DNA from: a virus
DNA: 20,771 nucleotides
Strand: one strand, 5' to 3'
IMG/VR virus record: IMGVR_UViG_3300027861_000234
Span: 1-20,771 of that record
How positions within the stretch are numbered: the first letter of the stretch is position 1; the number at the start of each line of letters is the position of its first letter. Shown here piece by piece: positions 9,760 to 19,282 of the stretch. The translations under genes were made by a program, and so were the position numbers. The notes beneath the pieces are model-generated. The model was not told where the DNA came from and did not search any database. It worked only from the letters and a program-made list of their open reading frames with translations.

Positions 9760-11229
9760 ATGAGTTTATCTGGAGGGAGTTTTCCCGCATCGATTGTTCC
9801 TGCTCAAAAGAAAATGACGTTAGAATCTAACTTCTTATCTTTTAATGGCGAAAGCACAGGAGCTAATCAAAACATGAATAACTTCGCTCAGCAATACCTA
9901 CCGGAATTGTATGAAGCGGAAGTTGAAAGATACGGAAACAGGACGTTGTCTGGTTTCTTGAGAATGGTTGGAGCTGAAATGCCTATGACTTCTGATCAAG
10001 TAATTTGGTCTGAACAAAATAGATTACATGTAGCTTATAAAGGTTTAGCCGATGCTATTGGTGCGCCAACTAATAATGTTTATACTATTGAGCCGAACTT
10101 GACTGGCACGTCTACTACTAAAATAGCTATAAGAGCAGGACAAACTGTTCTTTTATCTGATGAAGCTACTGGATTAGTAACTGCTAAAGTTTATGTAGTC
10201 ACAGCTGGTGATACAACATTTACTGCTAAAGTTTATGGGTCTAATACACTGCCTTCTACTTTAACATCTGGTACAGGAGTCAATATGTTTGTTTACGGTT
10301 CTGAATTTAAAAAAGGTACTAATGGAATGCTAGGTTCAATTGAGCCTTCTTTCACTCAGTATGCTAACAGACCTGTAATTATCAAAGATAAGTATGAAAT
10401 CAATGGTTCTGATACTGCTCAAATTGGGTGGGTTGAAGTTGCTACTGAAGACGGAACATCTGGATACTTATGGTATCTAAAAGCTGAGTCTGAAACTAGA
10501 TTGCGTTTTGAAGATTATCTTGAAATGATGATGGTTGAAGGTGTTGAAGCAAAACTAGCTAATGGTAGCGCTTCTTCATTAAGTACAGACAATATACTAG
10601 GTACTGAAGGTATGTTTGAGGCTATTGAACAAAGAGGTAATATATACTCTGGTTTTGCTGGACCTGCTGCTCCTGGTGCTGGTGCTTTAGGTGATTTCGA
10701 TGAGATCCTTAAAAATCTAGACAAGCAAGGTGCTATTGAAGAAAACATGTTATTCTTATCAAGATCTACTGCTCTTGATTTTGATGATATGATTGCTGCT
10801 ATGGCAGGTGGAGGTTATGCTTCTACTGCTTCTGCTTCTTACGGTCTTTTTGACAACGAAGCTGAAATGGCGCTTAACTTTGGATTTTCTGGTTTCAGAA
10901 GAGGTTCTTATGACTTCTACAAAACTGATTGGAAATATCTAAACGATGCATCTACAAGAGGATTAGATAAAGCTATTGATGGTGTGCTTGTTCCTGCTGG
11001 AACTTCTACAGTATATGATCAAATGTTAGGATCTAATATCAGACGACCATTCTTACACGTAAGATATAGAGCTTCTGAAACTGAAGATAGAAGATTTAAA
11101 AACTGGATTACTGGTTCAGTTGGAGGAGCTTACACTTCTGATTTAGATGCAATGTCTGTACACTTCTTATCTGAAAGATGTTTAGTAACTCAAGCTGCTA
11201 ATAACTTCGTGTTATTCAAAGGAGCTTAA
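9760..11229 (+). CDS. Major capsid protein
   Basis: A 489-residue protein that presumably builds the icosahedral shell through an HK97-type fold. The N-terminus carries the segments QNMNNFAQQYLPELYEAEV and LSGFLRMVGAEMPMT. A Thr/Gly/Val-rich beta segment at about 102-185 looks like an inserted domain. The middle has EDYLEMMMVEGVEAKLANG and a Gly/Ala-rich loop near 295-310. The C-terminal part contains FGFSGFRRGSYDFYKTDW, RRPFLHVRYRASE, DRRFKNWITGSVGGAY and FLSERCLVTQAANNFVLF, which I recall from marine and crAss-like MCPs of similar length. Codons are richer in C-ending and other favoured forms (AACTTC, TTCTTA) than in neighbours, as expected for the most abundant virion protein. It starts after an A-rich leader. 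A terminator lies one gene downstream. Confidence 0.85.
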   Translation: MSLSGGSFPASIVPAQKKMTLESNFLSFNGESTGANQNMNNFAQQYLPELYEAEVERYGNRTLSGFLRMVGAEMPMTSDQVIWSEQNRLHVAYKGLADAIGAPTNNVYTIEPNLTGTSTTKIAIRAGQTVLLSDEATGLVTAKVYVVTAGDTTFTAKVYGSNTLPSTLTSGTGVNMFVYGSEFKKGTNGMLGSIEPSFTQYANRPVIIKDKYEINGSDTAQIGWVEVATEDGTSGYLWYLKAESETRLRFEDYLEMMMVEGVEAKLANGSASSLSTDNILGTEGMFEAIEQRGNIYSGFAGPAAPGAGALGDFDEILKNLDKQGAIEENMLFLSRSTALDFDDMIAAMAGGGYASTASASYGLFDNEAEMALNFGFSGFRRGSYDFYKTDWKYLNDASTRGLDKAIDGVLVPAGTSTVYDQMLGSNIRRPFLHVRYRASETEDRRFKNWITGSVGGAYTSDLDAMSVHFLSERCLVTQAANNFVLFKGA

Positions 11230-12426: not shown

Positions 12427-12455
12427 AGGGTGGTTTACGCCACCCTTTTTTTTTT
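12427..12455 (+). terminator. Intrinsic terminator
   Basis: AGGGTGG (12427-12433) pairs with CCACCCT (12440-12446) around a 6-base loop, followed by ten Ts (12446-12455, the first within the stem). It lies 17 bases after the stop of the preceding gene and 13 bases before the ATG of the next, so any readthrough is likely attenuation rather than a full stop of the late operon. Confidence 0.88.
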
Positions 12456-12468
12456 AAAAAATATTAAA

Positions 12469-13233
12469 ATGGCAATAAACGTAAATACCGTATATACAAC
12501 AGTATTAAGTATTCTTAATAAAGAACAACGTGGTTATTTAACTCCTTATGAGTTTAATCAAATAGCTACGCAAGTACAATTAGAAATATTTGAAAAGTTT
12601 TTTGAAGACTACAACCAGTACATACGTATGCCTAAAACAAGTGTGGAGTTTGCCTCTAGAATGGACCACATAATGGAAGAGTTTCAAGTATTTGAAAAAA
12701 GCGGTCCTTCAATAACTATTCCAGCTGGTACTGCTCAAACAGATAATGTGTATAATCAACCTAGTGATCTACATAGATTTGGTTCTGTAACATGGAATAA
12801 AGGACTTAATTCTCCACCTATAGAAATACTCAGTAATAAAGATTACAATCAAATAAAACTATCTCCTTTAACACAACCTACAGATAATTTTCCTGTTGCT
12901 AAATACCAGCAAGATAAAATAACAGTTTTTCCAAGTTCTGCACCTTATGCTAGTTCTGACGTTACCTTTAACTATATTAGAAAACCAAAAGATGTTGTTT
13001 GGGCTTATAAACTTGGCACTTTAGGTCAATACATATTTAATGATTCTTTTGATCCGGTTGACAGCGGTGTAGTACCAGCTAGTGGTTATGTTGATTTTGA
13101 AATAAGTGATAGCCAACAAACTGAAGTTATATTAGAAATATTAAAATACGCTGGAGTAGTAATAAGAGATCCACAAATAGTACAAGCCGCTGCGAACGAG
13201 TTGGCCCAAAATGAAGCTAACACTAAAAGATAA
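12469..13233 (+). CDS. Head-tail adaptor/ring protein, putative
   Basis: A 254-residue protein. The start is taken at ATG 12469, after AAATATTAAA. A GTG 39 bases upstream is in frame but would translate through the terminator hairpin and is rejected. The N-terminus is helical: TVLSILNKEQRGYLTPYEFNQ, followed by VQLEIFEKFFEDYNQYIR. A beta-rich part follows with PSDLHRFGSVTWN, DKITVFPSSA, then VTFNYIRKPKDVVW, and a final helical segment containing TEVILEILKYAGVVIRDPQ. Order and features match the small ring/adaptor proteins between MCP and nozzle in crAss-like phages, as recalled. Such proteins form rings under the portal. The specific ring is not assigned. Confidence 0.6.
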   Translation: MAINVNTVYTTVLSILNKEQRGYLTPYEFNQIATQVQLEIFEKFFEDYNQYIRMPKTSVEFASRMDHIMEEFQVFEKSGPSITIPAGTAQTDNVYNQPSDLHRFGSVTWNKGLNSPPIEILSNKDYNQIKLSPLTQPTDNFPVAKYQQDKITVFPSSAPYASSDVTFNYIRKPKDVVWAYKLGTLGQYIFNDSFDPVDSGVVPASGYVDFEISDSQQTEVILEILKYAGVVIRDPQIVQAAANELAQNEANTKR

Positions 13234-13239
13234 TAAAAA

Positions 13240-14406
13240 ATGGGATTAATAAACGAAACTAACGCACAATACTATGCTGGACAACAAGAGTTCAATATAA
13301 CAGCCAGTACAACAGATCCTACTTTTACGTGTACTTTTGATACTAAAGTTGTAAGTGCTTATAATGATAGTGGCACACAGGTAGATGCATTTTCTAATTA
13401 CACTATATACATTTATAATTCGTCGTCTAATGTTTACGAGGCTCAACCTGAAAACATATCGTATATATCAGATGTAGCAAATAATATAATAACACTAACT
13501 GGAACTTTTGGTGGACCTGCTTATGTTCAGTTAAAACAAGCTGCAATAGGTAACAACTATGGAAGTTATGAATACATAAGTTTAAAAGATATAGTAAACA
13601 ATTTTATAGTAGCTTACGTAGGTTTAGACAAGTTAATACCTAGAGTTAGTAGAACAGATGTAATATTTCACGCTAAAAGAGGCTTACAAGAATTTAGTTA
13701 TGACACATTGAAGAGTATAAAATCTCAAGAATTAACTATACCACCAAATCTCGGTGTTCCAATACCTCAAGACTACGTTAATTACGTTAGATGTTCTTGG
13801 ATTGATGAAGGTGGCGTTCAGCATATTATATATCCAGTAAACAATTTAACCACATCTCCTACACAGTTGCTGATACAAGACAGCAAAGGAGTTCCTACGC
13901 AAAATGCTTTTGGAGGTAATAATTTAGCAGAGCAGTCTTTAACTGAAGATAGATGGAATTCTATATCAACAGAAAAGATTGATGGAGTTGACACTAACAG
14001 TGCTAATGTTTATAGTAGAGCTTGGTGGAAGCTAAACTTTGGTCAAAGATACGGCTTAGACCCTCAATATTCTCAACAAAATGGATGGTTTCAAATAAAT
14101 GAAAGATTAGGCACTTTTGCTTTTTCTAGTAATTTAGTAAATAAATTAATAGTTATTGAATATATATCTGATGGTTTAGCTTACGATATGGATTCTAAGG
14201 TGCCTAAGATGGCCGAGGATGCATTATATGCTCATATTAGTCATTCTATATTAGCTTCAAAATCTAATGTACAAGAATACATTGTTCAAAGATATAAAAA
14301 AGAAAGATCAGCTAAGTTAAGAAATGCTAAAATAAGACTTTCAAACATAAAAATAGGAGAAATTACTCAAGTTATGAGAGGTAAATCTAAATGGATTAAA
14401 CATTAA
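13240..14406 (+). CDS. Tail ring protein, tail tubular A-like, putative
   Basis: A 388-residue protein. Residues about 12-100 are a Thr/Ser/Asn/Tyr-rich beta segment that looks inserted. The core contains YVGLDKLIPRVSRTDVIFHAKRG, LQEFSYDTLKSIKSQELTIP and PQDYVNYVRCSWIDEGG. The C-terminal third has YISDGLAYDMDSKVPKMAEDAL, a helical run (ILASKSNVQEYIVQRYKKE) and ends with RGKSKWIKH. From memory this combination marks a podovirus tail ring protein, functionally like T7 gp11, joining portal/adaptor to nozzle. It sits directly before the large nozzle gene, as gp11 precedes gp12 in T7. Fold similarity to gp11 is inferred, not shown. Confidence 0.6.
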   Translation: MGLINETNAQYYAGQQEFNITASTTDPTFTCTFDTKVVSAYNDSGTQVDAFSNYTIYIYNSSSNVYEAQPENISYISDVANNIITLTGTFGGPAYVQLKQAAIGNNYGSYEYISLKDIVNNFIVAYVGLDKLIPRVSRTDVIFHAKRGLQEFSYDTLKSIKSQELTIPPNLGVPIPQDYVNYVRCSWIDEGGVQHIIYPVNNLTTSPTQLLIQDSKGVPTQNAFGGNNLAEQSLTEDRWNSISTEKIDGVDTNSANVYSRAWWKLNFGQRYGLDPQYSQQNGWFQINERLGTFAFSSNLVNKLIVIEYISDGLAYDMDSKVPKMAEDALYAHISHSILASKSNVQEYIVQRYKKERSAKLRNAKIRLSNIKIGEITQVMRGKSKWIKH

Positions 14407-14408
14407 AT

Positions 14409-17400
14409 ATGGCTGAGGTAAGAAATAATTTTATAAAGTCTAAAATGAACAAAGACCTAGATGATAGGTTATTGTCTAATGGTGAATATAGAGACGCTCA
14501 AAATGTAAATGTCAATAGATCAGAAGGAGAAGACGTAGGCGCATTGGAGAATGTTTTAGGAAACAAATTAGTTACTGATTTTTCACTTGGCGATAATTCA
14601 AGTTTAGAGATAATAGGATACTTAAGTGATGATATAAATAATAGGGCTTTTCTTATAGCAACTGACTATACTGATACGTCTTCAAGTAAACTAAGTAATC
14701 CAGCGCCCCATGGCGCTTCTTGCTATATATTAATTAGTGACTTAACTACTGGTAATAGTCAAATCTTAGTTAGAGGTAGATTCTTAAACTTTTCAAAAAC
14801 ACATCCAGTTTTTGGTATTGATTTAATAGAAGATCTATTATTTTTTAGTGACAATAGAAATCAACCAAGAAAAATAAATGTAAAAACAGCTGCTTCAAAT
14901 TTAAGTTACTACACTACAGAAGATCAAATATCCGTAGCTAAGTATTACCCTTACACTGCTCCACATTTGTATGATACGGTAATTTTACCCAATGTAACCA
15001 CCAACTTTAGCTCAGTGAACTGCACAGCTGCTGCTGCTATACCAGACACTATAAGAATTGGAATGCAGATACTAACACCTACTAACTTTGCAGAAAGAGT
15101 ATCAAAGCCAGTATTTATAGTATCTATTGATTACTCTACTACTGGTAATACAGTAGGAAACTTTGTAGTTTCTCAACCATTAACTGCTGGCACTAATGAT
15201 TTTACTTTTATATACCCTACTTCTGAAAATAGGACTGATGAGTTTATAACTTTTAGCCAAACTGCTAAATTTCTTAGTATAGCATCAAGTGGTTCTAATT
15301 TTGATGTTACTTTTTTAGCGCCTTCTTCAAGTCAGTCTTTAATAGGTAACATGTTAGTTACTTGTCCAGGTAAAATAAATGAAAAAGTTTTAACAGTTAT
15401 ACAGCCTGGTAGTGCTACCATAACTGTAGATAAAAATATAACAACAGGAGATAACTCTGTAGTTTATGGTGATATACTACAATTCGCATATCCAAACCCT
15501 AATTATGAGAGCACTTGGCCTGGAGATAAAGAATTATTAACAGATAAATTTGTTAGATTTGCTTATAGGTTTAAGTTTGATGATGGTGAATATTCTTTAA
15601 TATCTCCATTTACTCAACCTGCTTTTATACCCAAGCAAGATGGTTATATAGTTTCAGAACCAACTGACAATGATCCTCAATCTTACTCTGATCAAGCTGA
15701 AGGTATTGGAGCATCTACTATAATAAGTTTTTTTGAAAATAAAGTAGATGATGTAGGTATAAATATAGAAATGCCATATAAGGTTAATGAGTTAAATATA
15801 AATTTAAAAATAGTAGAAATAGATATACTATATAAAGAGTCAGATGGATTAGCAATACAAGTTTTAGAAACTATACCTGTCACAGACTCTTCAATAACTA
15901 GTAATTCAACTACAACATATAAATACACTTATCAATCTAGGAAACCATTTAGAACTCTTCCATCAGCTGAAACAACTAGAGTTTTTGATAAAGTACCTAT
16001 AAGATCAATGTCTCAATCTACTTCTGGAAATAGATTAATATATGGTAACTTTATAGATAAGCACTCACCACCTCAAAATATTGACTATGCTGTAAGGGCT
16101 AGTCCTAAGTATAAAGTAAACTCTCTTGACACTATATATTCTACAGTTTCAACCCCAAATCACACATTAAAACAAAATAGAAATTATCAAGTAGGCATAG
16201 TTTTAGCAGACAGATATGGTAGACAGTCAGATGTTATATTATCTTCTTTAAACAGTTTTCAAATATCACAAACTGGTAGTAGTGAAAAATTTGATGGATC
16301 AACAGTTTTTCATCCATATTACTCAGAGTCTAGTTCTAAAAACGAGGCTGTTCCTATAACTACCTCACAAAGAGGGTGGTTTGGTGATTCTTTAAAAATA
16401 TTATTTAAAGAGAAAATACCAAGTGTAGCTACTGGGGAAAATGCAGCTGGTTATCCAGGCTTGTATAAAAGTGGTCACTACAATGCTATAGTTACTTCTG
16501 GAGTTGTAGATAGCGATACGGCAGTAGTAAATAGCATAGACCCAGACATTGCAATAGGAGATATAGTTGGTACTACACCTCCTGTAAGTATTATAGATAT
16601 AAATCAATTGACTAACACTTTAATGTTTTCTGGAAATATAACCGCTCAAGCTGGTAAGAAGATTACTATACATGGGCCTGAAAATAAATTAGGCTGGTAC
16701 TCTTATAAGATAGTAGTTAAACAGCAAGCACAAGAATATTACAATGCATACTTAGCAAACATATCATCAAGACCAAATGTTAACGGTTATCAAGCGACTT
16801 GGGCTGGATCTCTAGGTCAGTCAAACGTAACCCAAATACAAGTGACAAATGCTTCGGACATATCAACTATGCAAGTAGGCGATTTAGTTACGGGACCAAA
16901 CATAACTACACAACCTGGTAACGTTCTACCTGCAACTGTTACAGAAAAAGTTAATTCTACTACTTTTAAAATAGATTTTGGAATAAACATGGCGGCTAAT
17001 CAATCTTTAACGATAGCGACACCATATACAAGAACCTCATCTGCTTATGTAAATAATCAAGCTTTTTATACTACTTTAATAAGTGATAATATAAATAAAA
17101 TACCAGCAGATCTTGAAGAAGTTCAACCAGAGCAAACTCTATTTAGAACAAGTGATGCTGTGTTATATCCTAGGGTAACATCGCTCAATATAGGTGGGTA
17201 TCCTGGAAGCTCTCAAAGACATTTAGGTAGTAAGTTTGCTACTGCAAGTACCTTAGGTAAAATATCAGATTTAGGTGTTCAAGCGGTAAGAACCGATAGT
17301 AATGGTGACAAAGTAAATATTAATCCTATAACATCAATTGGCTTATTTCAAGCTGAAACAAATCCTATTACAGCTGTTTTACTTGCTGATGGAATTACTT

Positions 17401-17597
17401 TAGGTGGTCTAGCTAGTGACCCATTTAACTTTAGTTATTTAGAAGTAAAACCTGCAGATTCATTATTAGATATATTCTGGGAGACTTCTACTAGTGGCTT
17501 AATATCTCAGTTAAACATAGACATAGATGCTGGGCCTGGTACATCACCCGCGATACCAAATCCACCTTTGTCGTTTCCGCCAGTTTCATCAACTTAA
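14409..17597 (+). CDS. Tail nozzle/muzzle protein, N-terminal component (T7 gp12-like)
   Basis: A 1062-residue beta-rich protein. The N-terminus NNFIKSKMNKDLDDRLL followed by EYRDAQNVNVNRSEGEDVG and ENVLGNK is what I recall from crAss-like muzzle and tail tubular B proteins. FGIDLIEDLLFFSDNRNQPRKINV (135-158) is a typical propeller-strand motif. Later blocks include FVRFAYRFKFDDGEYSLISPF (381-401), an ILYKESDGLAIQV strand (473-485) and NRLIYGNFIDKHSPPQNI (541-558). At about 198-272, 296-362, 697-756 and 806-872 there are four short Gly/Thr-rich beta modules of one pattern that look inserted in the propeller. The C-terminus is Pro/Ser-rich. With the next gene it probably forms the closed tail tip that opens on host contact. 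A single ~1600-residue protein in relatives is possible but unverified. Confidence 0.72.
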   Translation: MAEVRNNFIKSKMNKDLDDRLLSNGEYRDAQNVNVNRSEGEDVGALENVLGNKLVTDFSLGDNSSLEIIGYLSDDINNRAFLIATDYTDTSSSKLSNPAPHGASCYILISDLTTGNSQILVRGRFLNFSKTHPVFGIDLIEDLLFFSDNRNQPRKINVKTAASNLSYYTTEDQISVAKYYPYTAPHLYDTVILPNVTTNFSSVNCTAAAAIPDTIRIGMQILTPTNFAERVSKPVFIVSIDYSTTGNTVGNFVVSQPLTAGTNDFTFIYPTSENRTDEFITFSQTAKFLSIASSGSNFDVTFLAPSSSQSLIGNMLVTCPGKINEKVLTVIQPGSATITVDKNITTGDNSVVYGDILQFAYPNPNYESTWPGDKELLTDKFVRFAYRFKFDDGEYSLISPFTQPAFIPKQDGYIVSEPTDNDPQSYSDQAEGIGASTIISFFENKVDDVGINIEMPYKVNELNINLKIVEIDILYKESDGLAIQVLETIPVTDSSITSNSTTTYKYTYQSRKPFRTLPSAETTRVFDKVPIRSMSQSTSGNRLIYGNFIDKHSPPQNIDYAVRASPKYKVNSLDTIYSTVSTPNHTLKQNRNYQVGIVLADRYGRQSDVILSSLNSFQISQTGSSEKFDGSTVFHPYYSESSSKNEAVPITTSQRGWFGDSLKILFKEKIPSVATGENAAGYPGLYKSGHYNAIVTSGVVDSDTAVVNSIDPDIAIGDIVGTTPPVSIIDINQLTNTLMFSGNITAQAGKKITIHGPENKLGWYSYKIVVKQQAQEYYNAYLANISSRPNVNGYQATWAGSLGQSNVTQIQVTNASDISTMQVGDLVTGPNITTQPGNVLPATVTEKVNSTTFKIDFGINMAANQSLTIATPYTRTSSAYVNNQAFYTTLISDNINKIPADLEEVQPEQTLFRTSDAVLYPRVTSLNIGGYPGSSQRHLGSKFATASTLGKISDLGVQAVRTDSNGDKVNINPITSIGLFQAETNPITAVLLADGITLGGLASDPFNFSYLEVKPADSLLDIFWETSTSGLISQLNIDIDAGPGTSPAIPNPPLSFPPVSST

Positions 17598-17608
17598 ATA
17601 TTAAAATA

Positions 17609-19282
17609 ATGTCAAAGATAATAGAAGTAAATTTTTTTAATGCTTATTGGTTAAAATCTATAAAGGCGTCTAATGCTGATACTATACCCGGCTTTCCTAA
17701 AGCTCATCCTGGTATAGCTTACCCAGGTGGCTTAGCTAGTGGATATAGTTTAAGAAACTATTATATAGAAGAAGGTAGAATAAGAGGTGGTTTTAATAAT
17801 ACTTTTACAGATAATGGTGTTAGAGCTTATTTAGATGAGCAATATCCATTACAACAAAACAGAATAAATACTCTAATATACTCAGGTGTTTATAATTCTA
17901 GAACTGGTATAAACCAAACAAATGTTTTCTCTGTTGCTGATGAACTAACAAGATCTTTGGACCCGGCTCACGGGTCAATACAAAAAACATATTCCGAAGA
18001 TACCAACTTAATAGTGTTTCAGGAGAATAAAATAAGCAGGGCTTTAATAGATAAAGATACTATATATACAACTGAAGGTGGTACACAAACTCAAGCTGCA
18101 GCTACAGTGATAGGTCAGTTCGTCCCTTATAAAGGCGAATATGGAATAAGTAAAAATCCCGAATCATTTGCAATATATAACTATAGGAAGTATTTTTCTG
18201 ATAAAAACAGAAACTCTATAATGAGACTGTCTAATGATGGTCTTACTGAAATCAGCATGTACGGCATGATGGATTACTTTAGAGATAACTTAGCAGAAAT
18301 ATCAGAAAACTTTAAAACACATAACGTTCCTGGTATTGTTGCTAATGGAGGTGGTATTGCAACTACCGCGGCAGAAATAACCATAAGTTCTTCAGGTATT
18401 AAACCTTCAGTAGGTATGACTATATCTGGACAATCAGGTGGTTATATTACTAACGTAATAGAGAACAGTGAAACAAGTATTACAATTTTTTATTCTAAGC
18501 TTTTTAGCCCTGCTATATCTGGATCTATTAATTTTCAATTTCAAACTAGAGGAAGAATAATAGGTGGTTTCGATATACATAATAAAAATTATGTTGTATC
18601 ATTACAGAAAACACCTAACCAAGTTTCTACTACTTCTGATTATCAGACATTAACTTTTGATGAGCAAATAAACGGTTGGGTTAGCTTTTTAACATTTAAA
18701 CCAAATTATTTATTTAGTGTGTTAAATAAAACTTATACTACTAGAAATATTGAATTATTTCAGCAATATGATACTAGCATCGTTAATAATAGAGGTATAT
18801 TTTACGGAGTTCAAAGTCCATCTAATATTACATTTGTTTTTAATCCAAATCCATCTGTAGTTAAAAATTTTAAAACAATGAGCTATGAGGGCAGCAATGG
18901 CTGGGAGGTTAAGTCTTTTGTATCTGGGTTTGAGGGCTTTGATCCAGATCCTCAAAACACAGGACAGTACATGCAAAATCAAGATACTACTATGCCAACT
19001 CCTCCTGGTATATCTGTTAAAAGTTATGAAGAAGGTCTTTATACAGACGTATACACTGGTCAACCTTTGAGAGCTGGGTTTAATAGAAGAGAAAATAAAT
19101 ATGTTTCTAACTTAATATCTAATTCAGCAGCTAGACCTGGTGAAATAATATTCGGAGCAGCAATGACAGGTATAAAAGGTTATTTTGCTACTGTTAAGAT
19201 AGAAACAGATGCAACAACACAACTTGGTGGTGCTAAAGAATTATGGTCAGCAGGATCTTCCTATGTAACATCATCATATTAA
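17609..19282 (+). CDS. Tail nozzle protein, second component (beta-propeller type)
   Basis: A 557-residue protein. Conserved-looking segments in order are RNYYIEEGRIRGGFNN (49-64), DNGVRAYLDEQYP (68-80), RINTLIYSGVYNSRTGIN (85-102), ELTRSLDPAHGSIQK (112-126), DTNLIVFQENKISRALIDKD (131-150) and YGISKNPESFA (178-188). Residues 316-333 (RIIGGFDIHNKNYVVSL) form a propeller-like blade. A small beta module at 244-312 resembles those in the preceding protein. From memory these motifs belong to the tail nozzle family of crAss-like and other marine podoviruses, and they complete the propeller begun in the 1062-residue protein. The gap to the previous gene is 11 bases. The leader of the next gene is a perfect ATTAA triplet repeat. 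Confidence 0.65.
   Translation: MSKIIEVNFFNAYWLKSIKASNADTIPGFPKAHPGIAYPGGLASGYSLRNYYIEEGRIRGGFNNTFTDNGVRAYLDEQYPLQQNRINTLIYSGVYNSRTGINQTNVFSVADELTRSLDPAHGSIQKTYSEDTNLIVFQENKISRALIDKDTIYTTEGGTQTQAAATVIGQFVPYKGEYGISKNPESFAIYNYRKYFSDKNRNSIMRLSNDGLTEISMYGMMDYFRDNLAEISENFKTHNVPGIVANGGGIATTAAEITISSSGIKPSVGMTISGQSGGYITNVIENSETSITIFYSKLFSPAISGSINFQFQTRGRIIGGFDIHNKNYVVSLQKTPNQVSTTSDYQTLTFDEQINGWVSFLTFKPNYLFSVLNKTYTTRNIELFQQYDTSIVNNRGIFYGVQSPSNITFVFNPNPSVVKNFKTMSYEGSNGWEVKSFVSGFEGFDPDPQNTGQYMQNQDTTMPTPPGISVKSYEEGLYTDVYTGQPLRAGFNRRENKYVSNLISNSAARPGEIIFGAAMTGIKGYFATVKIETDATTQLGGAKELWSAGSSYVTSSY

Follow-up and report, generated by a model that had tools for sequence, protein, structure and literature searches.

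A small beta domain probably recurs as an insert in the split muzzle protein of a crassvirus-like phage

Crassviruses, an abundant group, carry at the tail tip a muzzle, a hexameric gated nozzle that is thought to gate the ejection of DNA and protein. In the virus record IMGVR_UViG_3300027861_000234 of IMG/VR (positions 1 to 20,771; the window, that is, the whole analysed stretch of 20,771 bases), two adjacent open reading frames (ORFs), denoted A and B, appear to encode a muzzle and contain five segments of 71-83 residues each that follow a common sequence plan. Are these segments copies of a single domain and, if so, what would such a domain do in the muzzle? We consider it probable that they are copies of one accessory beta domain of the virion that is inserted in the muzzle and, as we infer, sits on its outside and makes peripheral contacts. 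The features are given below, with the limits of the inserts set by alignment to relatives.

14409 to 17597, plus strand: ORF A, 1062 amino acids (aa), N-terminal and central part of the predicted muzzle, with the first propeller blades and the IG2/crass-domain region; contains copies 1-4
14985 to 15209, plus strand: copy 1, A residues 193-267
15279 to 15491, plus strand: copy 2, A residues 291-361
16467 to 16682, plus strand: copy 3, A residues 687-758
16791 to 17039, plus strand: copy 4, A residues 795-877
17609 to 19282, plus strand: ORF B, 557 aa, C-terminal part of the predicted muzzle, with the remaining propeller; contains copy 5
18305 to 18550, plus strand: copy 5, B residues 233-314

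By profile matches and predicted fold, A and B together are the crassvirus muzzle (nozzle-like) protein, here split in two. Different parts of phrog_14478 (1474 positions) are matched by A (E 5e-49) and by B (E 1e-40); B also matches the Pfam families crAss_MUZ_C (38.5 bits, cut-off 27) and crAss_MUZ (26.5 bits, just below its cut-off of 27), and the Pfam scan of A gave no match. AlphaFold2 (AF2) models were built with 62 of the 106 (A) and 81 of the 96 (B) aligned sequences and reached a predicted local distance difference test score (pLDDT) of 81.6 and a predicted template modelling score (pTM) of 0.77 for A, and 76.3 and 0.69 for B. For both models, the highest-Z chain is 7qol_P, the muzzle protein gp44 of crAss001 (PDB 7QOK/7QOL), which thus corresponds to the parent protein, with residues 54-934 matched by A (Z 10.8, root-mean-square deviation (rmsd) 6.1 over 474) and residues 1024-1371 by B (Z 15.6, rmsd 3.5 over 316), so that the propeller and the IG2/crass region follow one another as in gp44. 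In the model of B alone, confidence is low for most of the first 112 residues, as expected if these residues need A.

The common plan of the five segments, an (I/V)G(M/D) turn, a middle V/I strand, a T-I/F-x-I/V strand and a closing (L/F)x(F/I) strand, was noticed, in similar form, in a preliminary description made from the letters alone and is recognizable by eye in all five copies, with the exceptions of IGNM in copy 2 and a missing final P in copy 5; the limits given there all fall within 35 bases of those obtained by alignment. Sequence identity to copy 1 is low, 26% for copy 2, 25% for copy 3, 13% for copy 4 and 16% for copy 5, and among 64 copies collected from the window and its relatives, the only near-invariant residue is one glycine.

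Comparison with relatives, which the preliminary description had proposed, shows that every one of the segments is an insert, which a given relative may have at one site and lack at another. BLAST matches to A and B (157 and 146; related-locus searches comprise the best 80) were reduced to 144 and 140 by dropping ORFs that run off a contig end or have fewer than 880 aa (A) or 430 aa (B), and to 105 and 95 by removing near-identical sequences and the fused ORF of L069, after which the window was added to each set. With a site counted as filled when it holds an insert of at least 45 aa and as empty when it holds fewer than 30 aa, the site of copy 1 is filled in 70 and empty in 34 of the 106 A proteins, that of copy 2 in 63 and 39, that of copy 3 in 56 and 50, and that of copy 4 in 9 and 95, respectively; the site of copy 5 is filled in 43 and empty in 53 of the 96 B proteins. 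The flanks are conserved across filled and empty sites, and in the examples inspected the empty sites are short loops. A hidden Markov model (HMM) trained on the five sites, used un-iterated for all counts because the iterated version took in flanking backbone, matches 208 of the 241 inserts at these sites. It also matches 25 of the 41 inserts at nine other muzzle sites that were not used in training, compared with 16 of 820 shuffled inserts; these nine are the untrained sites with at least one match, and two of them, A59 and A99, each rest on one weak match (9.2 and 8.1 bits).

Profiles built separately for each site, from the alignments of the 106 A and 96 B proteins, support the relationship among the five sites. 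In all 10 pairwise hhalign comparisons, E-values ranged from 5e-6 to 0.031 over 17-61 columns, for example, 7e-6 for copies 2 and 5; the weakest pairs are those with copy 3, save 3/4, and the alignment of copies 2 and 4 covers only 17-18 columns. Five conserved muzzle stretches, used as controls in both directions against each module, gave E-values of at least 0.065; among the controls themselves, two pairs reached 0.026-0.027 over 7-17 columns, the best being 0.026 over 7, so that pair 2/3 (0.029-0.031, 44 columns) is, by E-value alone, no better than the best control pair. Nevertheless, none of 40 column shuffles reached the observed score for nine of the ten pairs, and none of 100 did in either direction for pair 3/4. 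When the site in question was left out of the HMM, copy 1 was detected with 15.9 bits, copy 2 with 8.2 and copy 4 with 10.3, against the best of 402 shuffled or reversed proteins at 6.6, 6.4 and 9.5 bits, respectively.

The AF2 models point in the same direction. The series of strands is alike in all copies: after an entry strand and a second one comes a short strand directly behind the G(M/D) turn, and two middle strands then lead to the closing strand, as follows.

Copy 1: A 188-198, 204-207, 220-222, 236-241, 251-254, 261-270; pLDDT of blocks 54-84
Copy 2: A 284-294, 297-303, 316-319, 323-326, 337-340, 356-360; pLDDT of blocks 69-89
Copy 3: A 690-695, 699-707, 719-720, 726-732, 737-746, 751-755; pLDDT of blocks 88-94
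Copy 4: A 794-798, 804-812, 826-828, 842-849, 852-861, 866-870; pLDDT of blocks 82-95, the last 59
Copy 5: B 236-247, 254-258, 271-272, 280-285, 290-295, 306-313; pLDDT of blocks 86-97

Model confidence is high for copies 3, 4 and 5 and fair for copy 2, the strand series of which is the least regular. Copy 3 (690-755) matches, over its whole length, residues 231-309 of the Chi tail-tip chain 8vjh_B (Z 9.0, rmsd 1.8 over 65), and copy 4 (792-874) matches residues 103-180 of the Mystique tail tube, 9n71_A (Z 7.9, rmsd 2.8 over 71, 21% identity); copies 1, 2 and 5 have no fold-match row of their own, the lists being dominated by the propeller. Both matches group the module with accessory domains found in phage tail proteins. 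At the sequence level, the Mystique tail tube comes first of 170 sequences with the five-site HMM (residues 105-174, 9.2 bits, E 0.11, with at most 7.4 bits in 500 shuffles), as it does with the HMM of copy 1 (9.5 bits vs 8.3 in shuffles); the HMM of copy 3 also ranks it first but below its own shuffle maximum, those of copies 2, 4 and 5 do not rank it first, and hhalign of the module against this protein gives E 0.03. As to the fold, Foldseek with model A returned riboflavin synthase with probability up to 0.90 over about 200 columns (E 0.009-0.05), the aligned residues not being stated, so that a RIFT-like (riboflavin-synthase-like) barrel may be the form of the module; BFVD matches of model A were uncharacterised and crass-like 'stabilization' proteins, whole-protein matches that are uninformative on the module alone.

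Taken together, the ten profile comparisons, all above column shuffles, and the similar strand order in the models bear out the view that the five segments form one domain family, and common ancestry is the likeliest reason why they share a profile and a strand plan. Judged by strand order and fold matches, the segments are neither different folds nor ordinary propeller blades; the latter possibility is rejected, given that relatives that lack the segments keep intact flanks and that the fold matches lie elsewhere. The statement that the copies interrupt propeller motifs holds in part: under a rough mapping to crAss001, copy 5 lies in the C-terminal propeller part and copies 1 and 2 near the junction of blades 2 and 3, but copies 3 and 4 fall in the large distal part with IG2 and the crass domain.

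Several observations weigh against this interpretation. When left out of training, copy 5 scored 8.3 bits and did not beat the best of 402 nulls (8.4), and copy 3, the weakest copy by sequence, failed this test altogether (2.8 vs 8.7 bits). Copy 1 is modelled with low confidence and is the least certain copy, and the likeness of the copies was judged by strand order, not by direct superposition. The match of copy 4 to Mystique has a Z just under 8, and values below 8 may, according to the tool, mean only a common arrangement; the sequence link to Mystique is weak in that its E-value is 0.11 and the HMM of copy 4, the very copy that matches in fold, does not pick that stretch. Chi gp26 has no significant match to the module HMM and thus lacks sequence support. 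At 12 other untrained places, including the C-terminal tails and site 1046, the HMM matched none of 174 inserts; therefore, not every muzzle insert is this domain. Finally, both the outer location and the function of the copies are inferred.

How do the copies come and go? The preliminary description had suggested exchangeable surface domains, with adhesion or shielding as candidate roles, and exchangeability agrees with only some of the evidence. Two inserts from different phages and different sites can be as much as 50% identical (best E 3e-21, with composition correction off), 22 of the 250 inserts with any match have their best match at another site, and each of the six A module sites requires at least 2-10 changes on the backbone tree (an unrooted FastTree tree, on which gains and losses are not distinguished). 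By contrast, none of the 73 pairs with more than 70% backbone identity differ in the filling of the six A-protein sites. For close pairs, the ratio of nonsynonymous to synonymous divergence (dN/dS) was computed in 57 cases, of which 49 were usable (24 A, 25 B; the pairs are not independent). The median ratio of module to backbone synonymous divergence is 1.00 (A) and 1.28 (B), that is, similar in both compartments. Given this similarity and the stable filling of A sites in close pairs, the modules are mostly inherited together. Nonsynonymous divergence is 1.9-fold (A) and 4.3-fold (B) higher in the modules, with median dN/dS of 0.222 (A) and 0.297 (B) compared with 0.135 and 0.077 in the backbone; the module value exceeds that of the backbone in 23 of 24 A and 25 of 25 B pairs but is above 1 in none of the 49. 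Thus, the modules are under purifying selection, yet evolve faster than the backbone, a pattern that is not the signature of either constant swapping or strong positive selection.

The nucleotide composition carries no comparable signal. The preliminary description contrasted an interval in copy 4 (16861-16920, 24 G+C of 60) with the sequence that follows (17041-17100, 11 of 60); both counts are correct, but they are not notable, 19.4% of the 60-base intervals in the two genes reaching at least 24. The five copies have a G+C fraction of 0.31-0.39, against 0.32 for the rest of both genes, and a foreign origin inferred from composition is accordingly rejected. Duplication at the DNA level was likewise dismissed: a repeat search of both genes yielded only families of 18-48 bases with 60-95% identity, none of which pairs whole copies.

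A scheme can be proposed in which the module, of about 75 residues, would form a small beta-sandwich or barrel with about six strands, each copy sitting as an insert on the tip of a muzzle beta hairpin or loop. The first and last strands would prolong the backbone hairpin, which would put the copy on the outside of the muzzle, and each copy would be present six times per virion. There, the copies could provide additional contacts, be it with adjacent subunits, with fibres or with the host surface, leaving the channel untouched. They would spread by occasional insertion or deletion and then be inherited and kept functional, evolving faster than the backbone.

Within or beside this scheme, other accounts of the copies deserve attention. 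It is possible that the copies wrap around neighbouring subunits and hold the hexameric muzzle together, by analogy with the YSD1 tail-tube protein, whose domain 2 is reported to lie on the outside and to fasten each subunit to the next as a latch would (PMC7385642; here and below, papers given by PMC number are cited from the passages available). The matches of copies 3 and 4 to stretches of siphophage tail proteins and the purifying selection on the modules fit such a role, although YSD1 domain 2 and the module may be different domains. Interfaces usually evolve slowly, whereas the modules diverge faster than the backbone, and each site is empty in many relatives (34-95 of 106; 53 of 96), so that no copy looks essential for assembly, which speaks against an essential latch. 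Rather doubtful, in our assessment, is a dedicated role in binding the host surface, with the copies adhering to the capsule or to outer-membrane glycans or proteins and diversified by an arms race. This role would suit the location at the tail tip and the faster amino-acid divergence, and the authors of the crAss001 structure propose that it is the distal crass domain that meets the cell surface, and that surface properties can be affected by insertions (PMC10172136). Diversification of this kind is harder to reconcile with the lack of any close pair, among 49, with module dN/dS above 1; the single near-invariant residue and the Pfam results, three single weak matches to sugar-binding models among the 64 copies (E 0.026-0.031), do not favour it either. 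The data do not choose between a latch and contact to fibres or host.

That the copies are neutral bulk, insertions tolerated with no role beyond folding by themselves, seems distinctly unlikely: presence and absence are scattered over the relatives and divergence is fast, as this account would have it, but purifying selection (median dN/dS 0.22 and 0.30) speaks against pure filler, the filling of the six A sites is identical in all 73 pairs above 70% identity, and one domain family occupies five to fourteen muzzle sites. We deem it highly improbable that the five are unrelated small beta domains that merely look alike. The identity of copies 2-5 to copy 1 (only 26, 25, 13 and 16%), the failure of copy 3 in leave-one-out detection and the E-value of pair 2/3, no better than that of the best control pair, would be explained by convergence, but the profile scores lie above all valid shuffles, and relatives' inserts at different sites reach 50% identity with E-values down to 3e-21 (composition correction off). 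On balance, we favour copies of one accessory domain with peripheral contacts.

A PDB sequence search with the module profile gave 13 matches up to E 5, the best at 0.66; tblastn of one relative's copy against phage records gave none at E 0.05; and a Pfam scan of the 64 copies (E ≤0.05) hit nine families with one member each, the best E being 0.01 and none an immunoglobulin (Ig) family. Given that no Pfam model recognised the module here, annotation is likely to miss it. The 64 copies matched 14 PHROG families at E ≤0.01, seven of which come from L135:3595-3825 alone, which also shares phrog_6005 with L068. This stretch was discounted as a module copy, being a different repeat that slipped into alignment A3, the profile of which finds four places in the window at E ≤0.001, no copy-1-like module among them. 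The remaining matches are phrog_5838 and 10467 (L046, E 5e-8 and 0.003), phrog_6005 (L068, 3e-6) and phrog_17105 (L043, 2e-4), all to internal stretches of larger proteins, and phrog_17640, 17107 and 15312 at E 0.001-0.006. The repeat in L135:3595-3825, in a muzzle homologue, is glycine-rich, of the form SGYxxGD, and matches baseplate wedge, tail fibre and other structural PHROGs.

The module also appears in other virion proteins. It occurs near the N-terminus of the putative ring proteins of two relatives (L070:3817-4062, 27.3 bits; L050:3808-4038, 21.3 bits), each of which precedes the muzzle gene; the equivalent protein of the window (13240-14406) has no significant match to the module HMM. 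In the window, the best match after the five copies (9.8 bits, E 0.11) is in residues 104-183 of the putative capsid protein, at about the position of the crassvirus I-domain, and the capsid proteins of L010 and L042 score 16.6 and 15.3 bits. In hhalign, the module against residues 85-186 of the major capsid protein (the I-domain, a beta-barrel of the crassvirus/P22 type) gave E 0.01-0.28, which does not confirm the HMM match, so that the I-domain as a sixth copy is suggestive only. Among cultured phages, Cellulophaga phage phi38:1 (L164), classified in Pervagoviridae, has one match, in the C-terminal part of the muzzle (residues 1208-1280, 16.8 bits). Its A-family match ends at residue 186 and resumes at 190, bypassing the HMM stretch of copies 1 and 2, and its B-family match leaves no room for copy 5, and this phage is a convenient experimental model for the module. 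Among named phages, the nearest ones, with 25-40% identity, have marine or Baltic Flavobacteriia as hosts.

As for the rest of the window, PHROGs name the terminase large subunit, the portal and several 'virion structural proteins'. Two further calls are our own, the second from gene order, the first from gene order and a match to Pfam Crass_capsid that falls below the cut-off:

9760 to 11229: putative capsid protein
12430 to 14406: putative ring proteins

ORFs A and B are separated by 11 bases. The muzzle is a single ORF in crAss001, phi38:1, elemoF, Gundel_1 and ctfjg026, in contrast to the two ORFs of the window; in Panino, the muzzle match likewise spans two annotated ORFs, and among the ORFs found in related contigs, only that of L069 (1908 aa) is fused and matches both A and B. 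We regard the split as coding variation, and the muzzle assignment stands because its basis is sequence and fold. A C-terminal tail of 156-845 residues with no module match extends 82 of the 106 A proteins; the window and 23 others have none. Separately, a 230-aa protein (1930-2622) contains a Laminin_G_3 (concanavalin-like lectin) domain (63 bits) and possibly is a binder on the virion surface.

That phage structural proteins can carry inserted domains, Ig-like and others, is already known, and insertions in the crassvirus muzzle have been mentioned in print. Fraser et al. 2006 reportedly described Ig-like domains spread among phage structural proteins, and Ig-like/Big domains behave similarly to the module in that small domains are spread among virion proteins. 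In literature searches that covered few subscription journals, and in passages of PMC10172136, PMC11945409, PMC12724387, PMC12893723, PMC12013898, PMC7385642 and PMC10684548, we found no account of a single domain family that recurs at many muzzle sites. A recurrent domain whose sites are filled in some phages and empty in others amounts to a set of natural experiments that can tell where the muzzle is in touch with the host.

The closest known counterpart in position is the Ig-like domain IG1 of crAss001 gp44 (163-292), located between blades 2 and 3 (PMC10172136). By our own mapping, it corresponds roughly to the region of copies 1 and 2; IG1 spans 130 residues, compared with about 75 for the module, and no match to the module HMM above 1 bit was found in the crAss001 muzzle. 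According to the same source, muzzle length varies by insertions into the crass and IG2 regions, which can affect surface properties, and the distal muzzle domain is likely to contact the cell. The likeness to siphophage tails is of another kind. The Chi chain 8VJH_B is probably gp26, as judged by length (557 vs 562 aa) and the VGD/T-L-x-F motif; in the matched stretch, gp26 has, by eye, a VGD turn and a T-L-x-F strand, as in the module, although the parent protein is different from the muzzle. The tail-tube protein of Mystique consists of an external and a core domain (PMC12013898), and residues 103-180 are probably the external domain D1, an identification of our own since the passages available give no residue limits; the numbering may differ, the PDB chain being 264 residues long compared with 249 for the annotated gene. 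Domain shuffling occurs in phage tail proteins, many of which, like many neck proteins, contain RIFT-related domains (PMC10684548). It is a quite doubtful but broader idea that a single virion domain family in unrelated phage tails, in the tube and tip of siphophages, the crassvirus-like muzzle, the ring protein and perhaps the capsid I-domain, serves as a universal surface add-on, with the muzzle as a docking platform that would carry variable numbers of copies at up to 14 or more hairpin sites and thereby tune host contacts. The module may thus link the tails of short-tailed and long-tailed phages.

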